From a bacterium (GTDB taxonomy: Bacteria > Patescibacteriota > Minisyncoccia > JAUYLV01): a DNA stretch of 51,863 nt. The stretch spans positions 1 to 51,863 of the forward strand of contig JAUSGO010000024.1 of assembly GCA_030649025.1 (NCBI GenBank), in the 5' to 3' direction. This document shows, one piece after another, positions 1,990 through 49,215 of the stretch. The notes below the pieces were generated by a model. That model did no database searches, was not told the DNA's origin, and saw only the letters and a list, made by a program, of their open reading frames with translations. A program made the translations under genes and the position numbers. Numbering within the stretch: the stretch's first letter is position 1; each line of letters starts with the position of its first letter.

Positions 1990-2361
1990 CTAGCGGATCC
2001 GTCGCATGTCTATCGTTTGTATATACGCCATAAATTTTTTTGGGTCTTTGTAGTTACAGCTCCGCATCCATTCCCGGAACCGTTTTTCTTTGGTCGGGTC
2101 AGTTCCGCTGTTTAGGAGCGCTGTAACCCAGAGGGCGAGACCCGTTATGGTGGCATCTTCGTCGCAAATCTTCAGGCCGCAAAGGTCGCATTGGATGGGC
2201 ATGCGCTTGTCGATGTTCAAGTATTTCCAGCAGTGGATGTTAAAGTTGTTCTTGGCGCAATGTCCGAATTGCTCATGGGTCTCAACGGTACCACTGCTTA
2301 CGTCTTGAAAAGAACAGTAGGAACACTGATATCCTTCAACCGTCATTACAATCGATTTCAT
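1990..2361 (-). CDS. Small zinc-ribbon protein of unknown function
   Basis: A 123-residue protein starting MKSIVMTVEG. The start is fixed by an AGGAGG ribosome binding site 5 bases upstream (2366-2371); the longer reading frame to 2508 runs into comM and is not needed. Visible features: CSYC near residues 12-15, a later H and C (GHC), and CDLC near 60-63, so it can offer two pairs of zinc ligands. The C-terminal half is rich in basic and aromatic residues. I do not recognise the family. Its ribosome binding site lies inside a copy of the hairpin/pseudoknot element (2362-2436), which could modulate its translation. It follows comM on the same strand and may be co-transcribed with it. Confidence 0.7.
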   Translation of the reverse strand: MKSIVMTVEGYQCSYCSFQDVSSGTVETHEQFGHCAKNNFNIHCWKYLNIDKRMPIQCDLCGLKICDEDATITGLALWVTALLNSGTDPTKEKRFREWMRSCNYKDPKKFMAYIQTIDMRRIR

Positions 2362-2436
2362 GCTTCCTCCTGGGCAGCTAACATTTTTCAGAAATAGGGA
2401 AGCTGCTCGTGAAATCTGAAGATGCTCAGATTTCAC
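2362..2436 (-). repeat. Hairpin + pseudoknot element, copy 1 (gene leader)
   Basis: Minus-strand order: hairpin 1 with an 11-bp perfect stem (2436-2426 with 2419-2409) and a 6-base loop; stem a 2408-2402 with 2378-2372 (6 of 7 pairs); conserved loop word TTTCTGAAAAATG; then AGGAGGAAG. The word CTTCC next to stem a can pair with GGAAG after the 3' arm, giving an H-type pseudoknot. The first arm of hairpin 1 is made from the last codons and stop of comM. The ribosome binding site of the downstream gene lies in the 3' strand. Confidence 0.7.
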
Positions 2437-3964
2437 TCCTTTTCCGGTATTGTATCGCTTCGGCAATGTGCTCGACGCGGATAGTTGGGCTTTGCGCAAG
2501 ATCGGCAATGGTACGCGCGACTTTAAGAATGTGATGATAGCTTCGCGCCGAAAGCTTCATGCGCGTTACTGCATCTTTCAAAAGCGCCTCGCCCTTCTCG
2601 TCTACTTTGCAGAATTCTTTGAGGTCCTTCACGCCCATCTCGGCATTGGTGAGGATGGATTTATCTTTGAAGCGCTCTTTTTGCATTGCGCGCGCTGATT
2701 CTACGCGGGCGCGAATGGCCGAAGATTCCTCCGCAACTTTTTCGCTTGCTAGCTTTTCATATTTAAGGCGTGGGACTTCAACGTGCAGGTCAATGCGGTC
2801 AAGCAAGGGCCCAGAAATTTTCCGCTGGTATTTTAGGATGCTCGTTGCGGGGCAGGCGCATTCTTTTTCGGGGTCCGACGCATTTCCGCAGGGACACGGA
2901 TTCATTGCCGCAACCAAGGTGAAACGGGCCGGAAAACTTATCGCGCCCTGCGCCCGGCTTATCGTGACTCGTCCTTCCTCAAGCGGTTGACGCAAATTTT
3001 CGAGCACCGAGCGCCCGAATTCTGGAAATTCGTCGAGAAACAAAATACCGCGGTGCGCGAGCGTGATCTCGCCCGGTCTAGGATATGTTCCTCCGCCAAC
3101 GAGCGAGATGCCGGAGGCCGTGTGGTGCGGACTGCGGAAGGGACGGTCAGAAACGACCGATGTACGCGCGTCGAGAAGCCCTGCTATGGAAAATATCTTG
3201 GTAACCTCAAGAATTTCCTCTTGAGACATCCGCGGCATAATACCCACCATTGCCTGTGCAAGAAGCGTTTTGCCCGAGCCGGGTGGTCCCTGAAAAAGCA
3301 CGTTATGTCCTCCGGAGGCCGCAATCTCCAGCGCCCGCTTTGCGTGTTCCTGTCCCTGAATGTAGGCCATGTCGAGAATTTGCCTTTCCCCCGGCATGTT
3401 TTCCTGTTCAATACGATCTTTGTCTGCTTCATATCGCTCAAGCACAACCTTTCCCAAAAGATGGTTCACGAGCTCTCCGAGCGTGCGGACGGGATAGACG
3501 ATGGCGTCTTTAATGAGGCTTGCCTCGCGCCTATTTTCATACGGCACGAATACTTCATAAAGATCGTTCTTCGCAGCCATTTCAATAATGGGAAGAATGC
3601 CTGCAACGGGGCGCAGGGCGCCGTCGAGCGCCAACTCACCGATAAAAAGTTTTTCAAGGGGATCAAAAACAATTTGCCGGGTTGCGTGCAAAAACCCCAT
3701 CGCAATAGGAAGGTCATACGCGGGACCCTCTTTTTTGATGTCCGCGGGCGCGAGGTTCACGATAACACGGTGCGCCTGGCGGTGCGGCGGATCGAAGCCG
3801 GAGTTTCGAAGCGCCGTCCCCACGCGTTCGCGCGCTTCTTCCACGGCTTTGTCGGGAAGGCCAACGATATGGAAGAGGTGAAGTCCAGGCGAAGTGTCCA
3901 CCTCAACTTGAATGGGGATGGCATCAAGTCCCCAGGTTGCGCCGCTTGATATTTTTGAAGGCAT
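2426..3964 (-). CDS. comM: ComM/YifB-family AAA+ ATPase (Mg-chelatase-like)
   Basis: A 512-residue protein of the YifB/ComM family. ComM is a branch-migration helicase that helps integrate incoming DNA during natural transformation. The N-terminal ChlI-like domain (residues 1-190) begins with SGATWGLDA, and the AAA+ core has Walker A GPPGSGKT at 226-233 and Walker B ILFLDEF at 307-313. A Cys cluster (CPCG and later CACP, about 355-370) follows, as in the family, then the C-terminal Mg_chelatase domain. Length is normal. The presence of dprA at 29 kb supports a DNA-uptake role. The stop codon forms part of the hairpin of the downstream element. The start lies about 150 bases from the divergently transcribed kinase fusion. 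Confidence 0.93.
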   Translation of the reverse strand: MPSKISSGATWGLDAIPIQVEVDTSPGLHLFHIVGLPDKAVEEARERVGTALRNSGFDPPHRQAHRVIVNLAPADIKKEGPAYDLPIAMGFLHATRQIVFDPLEKLFIGELALDGALRPVAGILPIIEMAAKNDLYEVFVPYENRREASLIKDAIVYPVRTLGELVNHLLGKVVLERYEADKDRIEQENMPGERQILDMAYIQGQEHAKRALEIAASGGHNVLFQGPPGSGKTLLAQAMVGIMPRMSQEEILEVTKIFSIAGLLDARTSVVSDRPFRSPHHTASGISLVGGGTYPRPGEITLAHRGILFLDEFPEFGRSVLENLRQPLEEGRVTISRAQGAISFPARFTLVAAMNPCPCGNASDPEKECACPATSILKYQRKISGPLLDRIDLHVEVPRLKYEKLASEKVAEESSAIRARVESARAMQKERFKDKSILTNAEMGVKDLKEFCKVDEKGEALLKDAVTRMKLSARSYHHILKVARTIADLAQSPTIRVEHIAEAIQYRKRSEI

Positions 3965-24925: not shown

Positions 24926-25714
24926 ATGATTAAAATCAAAAACCTCACAAAAAAGTTTGATGCGCAAAATGCGGTTACGGATCTTTCGCTTGAAATAGGC
25001 GCAGGAGAGATTTTTGCGTGCATCGGGCCGAACGGCTCGGGCAAGACCACGACAGTAAAAATGCTTGCCGGTCTTTATATGCCGACCGCGGGAAATATAG
25101 AGATTGGCGGTATATCTTTGGCGAATGAGCCGGAGAAGGCAAAAGCTCTGCTCGGCTACATTCCAGACGTGCCATTCATCTACGAAAAGATGTCCGGAAG
25201 GGAATTTCTCGGTTTCGTAGCCGCACTTTACCGCATGCCTTCCCAAGAGATGGTCCGGAGCACGCATGAGTGGATATCGATTTTTCCGGGCCTTTCGGAA
25301 GTCATTGACGGCTACGTAGAAAATTATTCGCGCGGCAACAAACAGAAGCTGGCTATTATCGCGGCATTGCTTCATAGGCCGAAGATTCTGCTCATTGACG
25401 AGCCTATGGTGGGGCTTGACCCGCAGAGCGTTCTTACGGTAAAAAAGCTTCTAAAAGATTTTTCGCAAAAGGGGCAACATTCTCCGGTGGAGAATGTTGC
25501 GGGCGGCCTCCTTGCTTCTGAAAATGGCATCCGCCCAGGAGGCGCAGTGTTTTTGTGCACGCATACGCTTCCGGTTGCCGAAGAACTTGCCACGCGCATC
25601 GGGATTTTGGAGAAAGGGAAATTGATCGCCATAGGCACGCTTGAAGAACTTCGCACGAAGACTGGCAAGCCCTCTGCCGATCTTGAAGAGGTATACCTTG
25701 CGCTCACGAGCTAG
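24926..25714 (+). CDS. ABC transporter ATPase with an in-frame repeat insertion
   Basis: A 262-residue ATP-binding subunit of an ABC-2 type exporter. Walker A GPNGSGKT is at 34-41, the signature motif YSRGNKQKL near 135-143, Walker B ILLIDEP near 154-160, the D-loop after it, and the switch His in FLCTHTL near 212. Residues 184-205 (22 aa) are an insertion between the D-loop helix and the H-loop strand, a region that in other family members is short. The inserted DNA is a copy of the hairpin/pseudoknot element and keeps the frame open. Whether the protein remains active is unknown. The partner permease follows after a palindromic spacer. Confidence 0.9.
   Translation: MIKIKNLTKKFDAQNAVTDLSLEIGAGEIFACIGPNGSGKTTTVKMLAGLYMPTAGNIEIGGISLANEPEKAKALLGYIPDVPFIYEKMSGREFLGFVAALYRMPSQEMVRSTHEWISIFPGLSEVIDGYVENYSRGNKQKLAIIAALLHRPKILLIDEPMVGLDPQSVLTVKKLLKDFSQKGQHSPVENVAGGLLASENGIRPGGAVFLCTHTLPVAEELATRIGILEKGKLIAIGTLEELRTKTGKPSADLEEVYLALTS
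25474..25542 (+). repeat. Hairpin + pseudoknot element, copy 2 (inside a CDS)
   Basis: Hairpin 1: 25474-25485 with 25489-25500, a perfect 12-bp stem and loop GGT. Stem a: GGGCGG (25501-25506) with CCGCCC (25531-25536). Pseudoknot stem b: CCTCCT (25507-25512) with AGGAGG (25537-25542), perfect. The loop word TTCTGAAAATG matches the other copies. The 66 bases from 25475 to 25540 are extra relative to ordinary family members and form 22 sense codons. Confidence 0.75.
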
Positions 25715-27519: not shown

Positions 27520-27610
27520 GCCGGAGTAGCTCAGTGGGCGAAAAGCAAATGTCTTTGCTTTTTGCGGGCAACTACATTGTTTCCAAATGAATGGGAGTTG
27601 TCCCGGAAGA
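27520..27610 (+). repeat. tRNA 5'-arm mimic plus hairpin/pseudoknot element, copy 3
   Basis: 27520-27538 matches the first 19 bases of the tRNA-Thr 119 bases downstream at 16 positions. It runs into hairpin 1 (27538-27549 with 27554-27565, loop TGTC). Stem a is GGGCAACT (27566-27573) with AGTTGTCCC (27596-27604, one bulge). Stem b is TTTCC (27580-27584) with GGAAG (27605-27609). It does not fold into a full tRNA. Confidence 0.65.
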
Positions 27611-27622
27611 GCAATGTTTTCG

Positions 27623-27726
27623 CCCCGTACCTTTTGATGCCAGCGTAGCTCAGTTGGTAGAGCAGGCGCTTCGTAAGCGTCAGGTCGTCGGTTCAAATCC
27701 GACCGCTGGCTCCAAAAGGTACGGGG
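27623..27726. repeat. 14-bp inverted repeat enclosing tRNA-Thr
   Basis: CCCCGTACCTTTTG (27623-27636) and its exact complement (27713-27726) flank the tRNA, leaving two bases before its 5' end and overlapping the last CA of the CCA end. In the transcript the pair would close a long helix around the tRNA, which could guide or block end processing. Confidence 0.7.
27639..27714 (+). tRNA. tRNA-Thr (anticodon CGT)
   Basis: 76 bases with a perfect 7-bp acceptor stem (GCCAGCG/CGCTGGC), D arm, anticodon loop TTCGTAA, T arm GTCGG-TTCAAAT-CCGAC, discriminator T and encoded CCA. It reads codon ACG. A 37-base copy of its 3' half lies 57 bases downstream. Confidence 0.95.
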
Positions 27727-27730
27727 TAAA

Positions 27731-27770
27731 TAAGCGTCAGGTCGTCGGTTCAAATCCGACCGCTGGCCCA
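27731..27770 (+). pseudogene. Duplicated 3' half of tRNA-Thr
   Basis: 27731-27767 is identical to tRNA bases 27674-27710 (anticodon loop to acceptor end) and is followed by CCA without the discriminator base. The breakpoint in the anticodon/T side and the exact match look like the scar of an element that integrates at tRNA 3' ends, or a local duplication. Confidence 0.8.
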
Positions 27771-39103: not shown

Positions 39104-39150
39104 AGTTTTGCCGTGGACGGCTCGCGTATATTTCCCACCTCGTCATTTTT

Positions 39151-39219
39151 CTCCTCCTGGGTAGCCATCATTTTTCAGAAACACGGAAGCTACCCGCGAA
39201 ATGCTCCACTGGAGCATTT
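39151..39219 (-). repeat. Hairpin + pseudoknot element, copy 4
   Basis: Minus-strand order: hairpin 1 (39219-39211 with 39207-39199, loop AGT), stem a GGGTAGC (39195-39189) with GCTACCC (39165-39159), loop word TTTCTGAAAAATG, and AGGAGGAG after the 3' arm, able to pair with CTTCC beside stem a. The stem a bases differ from copy 1 with matched changes. It points back into the convergent nuclease gene; no minus-strand gene follows it. Confidence 0.7.
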
Positions 39220-39226
39220 TGCCCAA

Positions 39227-39343
39227 GGGAGGCGCACGTTTCAGCCCTCCCAAAGTTAAAGAATCGATCCCTCCCTTGAGTTCCGAAAAATTGACTCGCT
39301 GGGCAACATGGCTCGCTGACAGCAAAATTTCTGAAAAGGGAGG
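39227..39343. repeat. Nested inverted repeats, possible diverged opposite copy
   Basis: GGGAGG (39227-39232) pairs with CCTCCC (39246-39251). CCTCCCTT (39270-39277) pairs with AAGGGAGG (39336-39343), and a GAGT/ACTC hairpin lies inside. The right end reads AATTTCTGAAAAGGGAGGAAG, like the loop and tail of the element but on plus, so this may be a decayed copy facing copy 4. Confidence 0.45.
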
Positions 39344-43175: not shown

Positions 43176-43250
43176 GCCCTCGTAGTTCAATGGATAGAAC
43201 AGGTCCGTCCTAAGGACAAAATGGGGGTCCGATTCCCTCCGAGGGCACCA
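43176..43250 (+). tRNA. tRNA-Arg (anticodon CCT)
   Basis: 75 bases. Acceptor stem GCCCTCG/CGAGGGC, D arm, anticodon loop GTCCTAA giving CCT, T arm GGGTCC-GATT-CCCTCC and encoded ACCA. It reads AGG. A copy of the hairpin/pseudoknot element begins two bases after it. Confidence 0.93.
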
Positions 43251-43251
43251 A

Positions 43252-43320
43252 AACAAAGATCTTTGATTTGTGCGGGCGGTTACAATGTTTCTGAAAAATG
43301 AATAAACCACCCAGGAACAC
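43252..43320 (+). repeat. Hairpin + pseudoknot element, copy 5 (after tRNA-Arg)
   Basis: Hairpin 1: ACAAA-x-ATC with GATTTGT (one bulge). Stem a: GGGCGGTT (43274-43281) with AACCACCC (43305-43312), one mismatch. Loop word GTTTCTGAAAAATGAAT. Stem b: GTTTCT (43287-43292) with AGGAAC (43313-43318), five Watson-Crick pairs and one G-U. Confidence 0.65.
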
Positions 43321-43357
43321 CAAGGCGTATTTACGAGGGGCAAGTTCCATATAGTTT

Positions 43358-44271: not shown

Positions 44272-44317
44272 GGGCCTATAGTAAATAAGTGTTGCGTCCC
44301 GTGCACGGGAAGGGCGG
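44272..44317 (+). pseudogene. 5' half of a tRNA-Ala copy
   Basis: The first 15 bases (GGGCCTATAGTAAAT) are identical to the intact tRNA-Ala at 44577. The D arm and GGGCGG of the variable region are also alike, but the anticodon arm is replaced by the palindrome TCCCGTGCACGGGA with no 7-base loop. Similarity stops in the T arm, where the GIY-YIG leader begins. It cannot make a full tRNA. Confidence 0.7.
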
Positions 44318-44322
44318 CTTTT

Positions 44323-44586
44323 ATGGGAATTCTATATATCTTGCGAAGTAAAAAAAGTGGGAAGTATTACATAGGCAGTACGAATGATTTAGACAGAAGA
44401 ATCGCTGAGCACAATTCGGGGAAAACGAAATCTTTACGGAATCTGCGTCCTCTCGAAATAGTTTTCAAACTGGAATACCCCTCTTTGCTTATGGCCAGAC
44501 GCAAGGAACGGGCGCTGAAGCAGTTAAAGAGCAGAAGTGCTCTTGAAGTCATTGTTAAAACACAGAAGCTGATATTGGGCCTATAG
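44323..44586 (+). CDS. Small GIY-YIG domain protein
   Basis: 87 residues. The GIY-YIG signature appears as LYILRSKKSGKYYIGST near 4-20, followed by RRIAEHNSGKTKSLRN and a conserved Glu in LEIVFKLEYPS. This is the single-domain UPF0213/URI-like form, which may act as a DNA nuclease or as part of a mobile element. It sits exactly between a tRNA 5' half and an intact tRNA-Ala, and its stop codon (TAG) is formed by the first bases of that tRNA. This placement suggests a homing or integration history. The start is the ATG at 44323; the longer frame upstream is the tRNA remnant. Confidence 0.75.
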   Translation: MGILYILRSKKSGKYYIGSTNDLDRRIAEHNSGKTKSLRNLRPLEIVFKLEYPSLLMARRKERALKQLKSRSALEVIVKTQKLILGL

Positions 44587-44650
44587 TAAATCGGTATTAC
44601 GCCTCCATGGCATGGAGGAGGGCGGGGTTCGATTCCCCGTAGGTCCACCA
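44577..44650 (+). tRNA. tRNA-Ala (anticodon GGC)
   Basis: 74 bases. Acceptor GGGCCTA/TAGGTCC contains the G3-U70 pair that defines alanine tRNAs. Anticodon arm CCTCC-ATGGCAT-GGAGG gives GGC (reads GCC). T arm CGGGG-TTCGATT-CCCCG, and ACCA is encoded. The 5' end overlaps the last codons of the GIY-YIG gene. Confidence 0.92.
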
Positions 44651-48902: not shown

Positions 48903-48960
48903 ATGGCGGAGGATTGGCTGAGTGGGCCAAAGCAAAAGTCTTTGCTTTGGCGGGATAATG
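48903..48960 (+). repeat. tRNA-Ser 5'-arm mimic plus palindromic hairpin
   Basis: 48903-48926 resembles the start of the tRNA-Ser at 48984 (GGCGGAG then a D-arm-like TGGCTGAGTGG). GCCAAAGCAAA (48926-48936) pairs with TTTGCTTTGGC (48941-48951), loop AGTC. The segment aligns with the one at 27520-27568 over nearly 50 bases. Stem a of the full element is not clear here. Confidence 0.6.
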
Positions 48961-48983
48961 CCAAATTAATTTCTTTCTAGGGC

Positions 48984-49070
48984 GGAGACGTGGCAGAGAG
49001 GTCGAATGCGCCGCACTCGAAATGCGGTATACCTTTACGGGTATCGGAGGTTCGAATCCTCCCGTCTCCG
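48984..49070 (+). tRNA. tRNA-Ser (anticodon CGA)
   Basis: 87 bases with the long variable arm of class II tRNAs (TATACC-TTTAC-GGGTATC). Acceptor GGAGACG/CGTCTCC, anticodon loop CTCGAAA giving CGA (reads TCG), T arm GGAGG-TTCGAAT-CCTCC, discriminator G. CCA is not encoded, unlike the other three tRNAs here. TTTCTTTC before it and GAAAGAAA after it can pair around the gene. Confidence 0.92.
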
Positions 49071-49215
49071 CCGTGGAAAGAAAATTTTGAAATAGTGTTC
49101 GCCCAGGAATCGGAGGAATCTTCCCTGTTTGTCTAAGAGCGAAGCGATTAGCCACAAACAGCAATCCCGATTCGGCGGGACTCCCGTCTCCGCTTTGGAT
49201 CGAATCCTCTCGCAT
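49071..49215 (+). other. Region with tRNA-Ser 3' fragments and a hairpin
   Basis: ACTCCCGTCTCCGC (49181-49194) and GGATCGAATCCTC (49197-49209) repeat pieces of the tRNA-Ser T arm and acceptor end, in scrambled order. CTGTTTGT and ACAAACAG close a hairpin between them (about 49134-49164). GCCCAGGAA near 49101 matches the 3' tail of the dispersed element. Confidence 0.45.

Follow-up and report, generated by a model that had tools for sequence, protein, structure and literature searches.

The window, the whole stretch of 51,863 nucleotides that was analyzed, is contig C24 within a 1.23-Mb genome. On its forward strand, a small GIY-YIG nuclease gene was found between a decayed 5′ remnant of tRNA-Ala(GGC) and an intact tRNA-Ala(GGC), which overlaps the 3′ end of the ORF (Table 1). 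Bases 1–15 of the remnant are identical to those of the intact tRNA, and its D arm has decayed. The two copies align with a score of 48, whereas 100 shuffles reached 34 at most; when 48 foreign tRNAs were compared with the remnant, not one scored as well as tRNA-Ala. Similarity ends a few bases into the T stem, in agreement with the original prediction made for this locus, which had also correctly noted the perfect palindrome formed by the remnant's anticodon arm. The stop codon of the nuclease gene indeed lies inside the intact tRNA; it is made not of the very first bases, as had been claimed, but of bases 8–10 (TAG), and the ORF continues across the first ten bases of the tRNA.

Table 1. Features of the tRNA-Ala locus, other tRNA regions and structured repeat copies in the window.
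Feature	Positions	Strand	Remarks
5′ remnant of tRNA-Ala(GGC), decayed	44272–44317	+	aligns to positions 1–49 of the intact tRNA
Perfect palindrome TCCCGTGCACGGGA	44297–44310	+	14 bp, occupies the place of the remnant's anticodon arm
GIY-YIG nuclease ORF	44323–44586	+	87 aa, UPF0213/SLX1-like single domain; PF01541, E 2e-14
Stop codon TAG of the ORF	44584–44586	+	within the intact tRNA
Intact tRNA-Ala(GGC)	44577–44650	+	overlaps the 3′ end of the ORF
tRNA-Thr(CGT)	27639–27714		region 27587–27770
3′ piece of tRNA-Thr	27731–27770		
tRNA-Ser(CGA)	48984–49072		region 48905–49193
Structured repeat	2350–2442	-	
Structured repeat	25467–25558	+	
Structured repeat	27532–27625	+	
Structured repeat	39137–39229	-	
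Structured repeat	43240–43334	+	

We failed to find a 3′ remnant next to the window tRNA-Ala or a terminal inverted repeat at the locus (score 14, threshold 25), and RNA folding of the remnant gave no signal (z -0.89). Six proteins encoded in the window around the locus were scanned, and none was a recombinase or integrase. An intron-encoded endonuclease was rejected, since a search of the window with Rfam at gathering scores revealed four tRNAs only and no group I or II intron. Origin of the gene from a phage or plasmid was likewise rejected because its product had no tblastn match in the respective collections; one short match to a viral contig was the only one obtained.

A profile built from 18 relatives matched the UPF0213 structure 1zg2 (1e-16) and SLX1 (2e-8) far ahead of I-TevI, and the catalytic columns were invariant across the 18 sequences. 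The AlphaFold model (pLDDT 88) gave the same picture: UPF0213 and SLX1 were the top fold matches, with I-TevI and UvrC domains lower, so that by both profile and fold the closest proteins are UPF0213 and SLX1 (1zg2, 1ywl, 7cq2). A separate sequence-specific DNA-binding domain was absent from both the sequence and the model of the 87-residue protein. The window enzyme is a bare catalytic domain, closer to UPF0213/SLX1 than to phage SegB or I-TevI. We know of no mobile or tRNA-linked context for UPF0213/SLX1 proteins. The dN/dS values of the GIY genes were 0.06–0.16 in those pairs, 7 of 11, whose dS was not saturated; these genes are under purifying selection.

Recurrence of the arrangement beside tRNA genes

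We looked for the GIY protein in 93 genomes and scanned the regions around most of the matches listed with the profile. The upper part of the matches listed, which are class relatives, yielded 106 GIY ORFs, distributed over 98 loci; L005 and L011, which duplicate L041, were dropped from the scan. Among these matches, an intact tRNA was located on the same strand within 150 bp downstream of 56 of the 106 ORFs, a same-strand tRNA upstream of eight, and an opposite-strand tRNA beside none, with a chance expectation of about 0.5% by simple arithmetic (47 tRNAs in 1.23 Mb). A scan of GTDB contigs with the proteins of the window and of genome G085 as queries gave 58 loci, or 57 after removal of L133 (same locus as L042, a G085 duplicate): the tRNA was downstream in 31, upstream in 13, and on neither side in 13, proportions that, like those of the first set, describe loci chosen by similarity to the window GIY protein and are not valid for all GIY genes. 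These loci, which we assigned to phyla by their record titles, belonged mostly to Patescibacteria, with some in Bacteroidota, Kiritimatiellales, Omnitrophota, Elusimicrobia, and several further groups; tRNA-Ala genes were the site of all four best matches (63, 61, 59, and 57% identity). In the genome of the window itself, a tRNA was directly downstream at 3 of 10 PF01541 loci. Repeated rounds at a single tRNA were found in L122, L129, L130, and L042.

The tRNA isotype follows the GIY lineage: mapped on 53 rows of the GIY tree, it required 25 changes, compared with a mean of 41.3 and a lowest value of 38 in 200 shuffles. The tree comprised 102 rows (the 106 ORFs less four under 55 aa) and few columns, with many forks unresolved.

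Among the matches listed, the ORF stop fell inside the tRNA in 29 of the 56 cases with a downstream tRNA, 13 of them at the UAG of bases 8–10. Together with purifying selection, this is consistent with a cellular role, in which the nuclease would act, on either RNA or DNA, in the context of tRNA maturation and would be kept beside tRNAs for regulation, for example through truncation of its mRNA by RNase P processing. The patchy presence of the gene within genera and the tRNA remnants beside it point instead to mobility, and we regard such a role as very improbable.

Remnants, hairpins, and the mirror form

In 41 of the 56 downstream loci among the matches listed, the sequence before the GIY gene resembled the adjacent tRNA rather than foreign tRNAs, i.e., its match to the first 40 bases of the adjacent tRNA equaled or exceeded that of all but 2% of foreign tRNAs. 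Hairpin strength in the 100 bp preceding the GIY gene had a median of 18, compared with 11 further upstream and 11.5 in shuffles (n = 54). A perfect hairpin was flanked on either side by same-isotype tRNA sequence in 35 of 87 loci, and the corresponding test with foreign tRNAs was positive in 65 of 6966 pairs (0.9%); the 35 interruptions were in the D arm (16), the anticodon arm (15), or further along (4). An earlier, stricter version of this tRNA–hairpin–tRNA test was positive in 13 of 87 loci and 3 of 1740 control pairs. We rejected the idea that the palindrome is a mere product of decay because hairpins recur among the remnants. The window copy failed to pass the general test, its remnant scoring narrowly below the threshold (38 vs. 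41), and this counts against the homing-like reading developed below. Among 28 other tRNA-Ala loci, an upstream repeat with a score of at least 26 was detected in one; at least 4 of the 28 are near a GIY gene or tail.

The exact replacement of the anticodon arm by a TCCCGATGNNCATCGGGA-like hairpin was evident in L132 and L144 (tRNA-Ala TGC), L139 (Asp), L141 (Gly, Elusimicrobia), and L145 (Val). In these fresh copies, the tRNA runs to about base 26–27, is followed by the hairpin, and resumes from about base 43–45 up to the start of the GIY gene. The Bacteroidota loci L182, L176, and L180 are mirrored: a complete tRNA-Val with its terminator precedes the GIY gene, and a 3′ tRNA-Val remnant, in which TCCCGATTTGACATCGGGA or a similar sequence replaces the anticodon arm, follows it; in L182 and L176, the terminator is copied after the remnant. 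In Kiritimatiellales (L147, L168), remnants with hairpins flank the GIY gene on both sides.

Tyrosine-recombinase elements at tRNA genes have a partial tRNA on one side and a restored tRNA on the other. In a Campbell-type integration of this kind, a circle with the nuclease gene and a tRNA part would recombine with the host tRNA, the nuclease being cargo. The direct repetition of one tRNA end across the gene, the 5′ end in Patescibacteria and the 3′ end in Bacteroidota, fits this explanation. At the same time, the elements are only about 300 bp long, far smaller than tyrosine-recombinase elements, the scanned window proteins include no recombinase, and a hairpin in place of the anticodon arm is not predicted; thus, we consider it quite improbable.

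Empty sites and the form within inverted repeats

Relatives with an unbroken tRNA-Ala, which the original prediction had proposed to look for, were found, including the same-family genome G001, where the GIY protein had no match. Three same-genus pairs had the tRNA-Ala(GGC) locus with and without the GIY gene (G085/G063, G073/G052, G074/G029); these alleles represent the genus level, the window locus itself having no same-genus pair. At the site of the lone tRNA of G063, G085 carries a pair of 5′ remnants followed by the GIY gene, an intact tRNA, and a 3′ remnant; this 3′ remnant is closer than the intact tRNA of G085 to the tRNA end and flank of G063. The spacing between the upstream gene and the tRNA was 340 bp in G073 vs. 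32 bp in G052. In G074, the insert CCCCTCACTTGGAATCATT...AATGATTCCAAGTGAG, absent from G029, lies between two copies of tRNA bases 1–10.

The comparisons strongly support a history in which the gene inserted into tRNA genes and a working tRNA was restored. The original prediction had named two routes to the layout, entry of a nuclease gene into a tRNA that it rebuilt and a duplication that trapped the gene. The former is partly supported and fits the comparative data much better, because the layout recurs across several phyla and with many isotypes, is strand-specific, and tracks the GIY lineage, and because three same-genus relatives have a plain tRNA. A chance tandem duplication enclosing an unrelated gene would likewise leave a partial copy on one side, but it is contradicted by the recurrence with many isotypes, the strand bias, the agreement of isotype with GIY lineage, the repeated occurrence of the hairpin, and the empty sites, and is most improbable.

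Relatives with the same gene unlinked to tRNA remnants, which were to speak against the prediction, do exist in part: a related GIY branch is bounded by inverted repeats and located away from tRNAs. Among the matches listed, the GIY gene was inside terminal inverted repeats in 38 of 105 loci (one of the 106 was dropped for too little flank), mostly away from tRNAs, and the loci of these relatives that have no nearby tRNA mostly bear such repeats. The form is mainly confined to one branch of the GIY tree. The 37 inverted-repeat loci measured were mostly about 285–320 bp in total. Target duplications exceeded the 99% null in only 4 of these 37, and target-site duplication was therefore rejected as a rule for the class. 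Of 29 non-tRNA elements, 13 end at a start codon whose ORF is 50 aa or longer, compared with 212 of 1060 random windows. The elements in L065, L098, L109, L121, L124, and others abut the start codon directly; the G-run of their inverted repeats is perhaps a ribosome-binding site.

These elements bear on another explanation, a hairpin-based transposable element, whose SLX1-like structure-specific nuclease would act on end palindromes or inverted repeats, preferring tRNA genes and G-rich gene starts; short target duplications would rebuild the tRNA by positional accident. The compact inverted-repeat loci, their ends at start codons, the inverted-repeat GIY element of G074 enclosed by two copies of tRNA bases 1–10 and absent from G029, and the similarity to UPF0213 and the branched-DNA nuclease SLX1 among solved structures all agree with it. 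However, the window locus lacks a terminal inverted repeat, target duplications are rare, and the isotype-specific lineages are left unaccounted for. We consider this explanation rather unlikely.

Proposed mechanism, known systems, and other tRNA cassettes

The reading that we prefer, and regard as fairly probable, is a mobile nuclease cassette that specializes in tRNA genes, which would spread by homing-like breakage and repair and leave a working tRNA behind. The small GIY-YIG enzyme would promote breakage of the gene for a single tRNA isotype, in the window lineage probably that for tRNA-Ala, at or near the anticodon arm. Repair templated by a cassette-bearing copy would insert the nuclease gene: one homology arm would become the dead half-tRNA, its target site destroyed and marked by the palindrome, and the other, a complete tRNA copy, would allow the host to retain a working tRNA. 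The expected product is a dead half-tRNA with a palindrome, the nuclease gene, and a complete tRNA, with the mirror image in Bacteroidota. The anatomy and its recurrence, the fidelity to isotype, the empty sites at the genus level, and the purifying selection are observed; that the enzyme cuts DNA, that a homologous template serves in repair, and what the palindrome does are inferred. A bare catalytic domain is unlike known homing endonucleases, and the complete tRNA seems to retain the presumed target, leaving self-cutting unaccounted for. Moreover, pure homing does not predict the inverted-repeat sisters, which a hairpin-processing nuclease would suit better.

A free-standing GIY-YIG homing endonuclease is known from T-even phages, SegB; according to passages of two reports, the breaks that it makes lie in tRNA genes and lead to recombination at these sites (PMC13096335, PMC2988022). 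Both SegB and the window gene encode GIY-YIG proteins next to tRNA genes, but SegB is phage-borne and placed between the tRNAs of a cluster, and those passages do not mention a dead half-tRNA with a hairpin. The window cassette shares with free-standing homing endonucleases the catalytic domain and, in the same-genus pairs of relatives, the alleles with and without the gene, and differs in having no separate DNA-binding domain. Insertions encoding GIY-YIG proteins and matching no intron class are described in rRNA genes of CPR bacteria in PMC11270868, whose authors place GIY-YIG outside spread by homing. These are in structural RNA genes, as in the window, but in rRNA rather than tRNA genes; the words "tRNA" and "palindrom" are absent from the main text of that paper. 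tRNA cassettes may bear on these unexplained non-intron insertions. We found no report of tRNA remnants with hairpins beside GIY-YIG genes in the open-licence literature, and the recurrence of the layout at many tRNA genes in many bacteria points to mobile elements of a largely unrecognized kind, which break tRNA genes and rebuild them.

A broader version of the preferred reading is possible but doubtful: isotype-tied minimal GIY-YIG nucleases of several bacterial phyla might be natural cleave-and-rescue elements, breaking an essential tRNA gene and supplying the replacement, with the anticodon-arm hairpin as a protected scar and the inverted-repeat sisters as GIY-YIG-driven transposons of about 300 bp. 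If so, minimal selfish genes would recurrently attack and replace essential tRNA genes in Patescibacteria, Bacteroidota, and others, which would explain the small GIY-YIG genes adjoining tRNAs and provide a natural case of a nuclease equipped with a rescue copy of the essential gene. The sisters would be among the smallest autonomous elements proposed, and the cassette would offer a simple system for studying how a nuclease of 87 residues selects a single tRNA gene.

Other tRNAs of the window have comparable surroundings. The inverted repeats CCCCGTACCTTTT and AAAAGGTACGGGG enclose tRNA-Thr(CGT); a 3′ piece of tRNA-Thr follows this tRNA, and a 5′ piece was recognized by eye ahead of it. The region reads as a nuclease-free tRNA cassette that split an older tRNA-Thr. 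Upstream of tRNA-Ser(CGA), a 5′ remnant with a palindrome was recognized by eye; TCCCGATTCGGCGGGA and then a tRNA-Ser 3′ end follow downstream. A structured repeat, composed of a covarying stem followed by GCGGGC..TACAATGTTTC..GCCCAGGA, occurs in five copies in the window (Table 1). It had no Rfam match that we saw; 47 matches were found in the same genome, 31 in G001, and one in each of two of the other 53 genomes. Many copies are beside tRNAs or in loops of tRNA remnants.

In the genome of the window (L190–L221 and the window), a same-isotype 3′ remnant was located downstream of 16 of 47 tRNAs; the controls gave no 3′ part upstream and three 5′ parts downstream. Several of these 3′ remnants follow a similar non-coding stretch of about 100–200 nt that contains an inverted copy of the T arm. 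In G001 (L272, about 880–1060), the D loop of a split, older tRNA-Arg(CCT) contains an intact tRNA-Arg(CCT) between inverted repeats.
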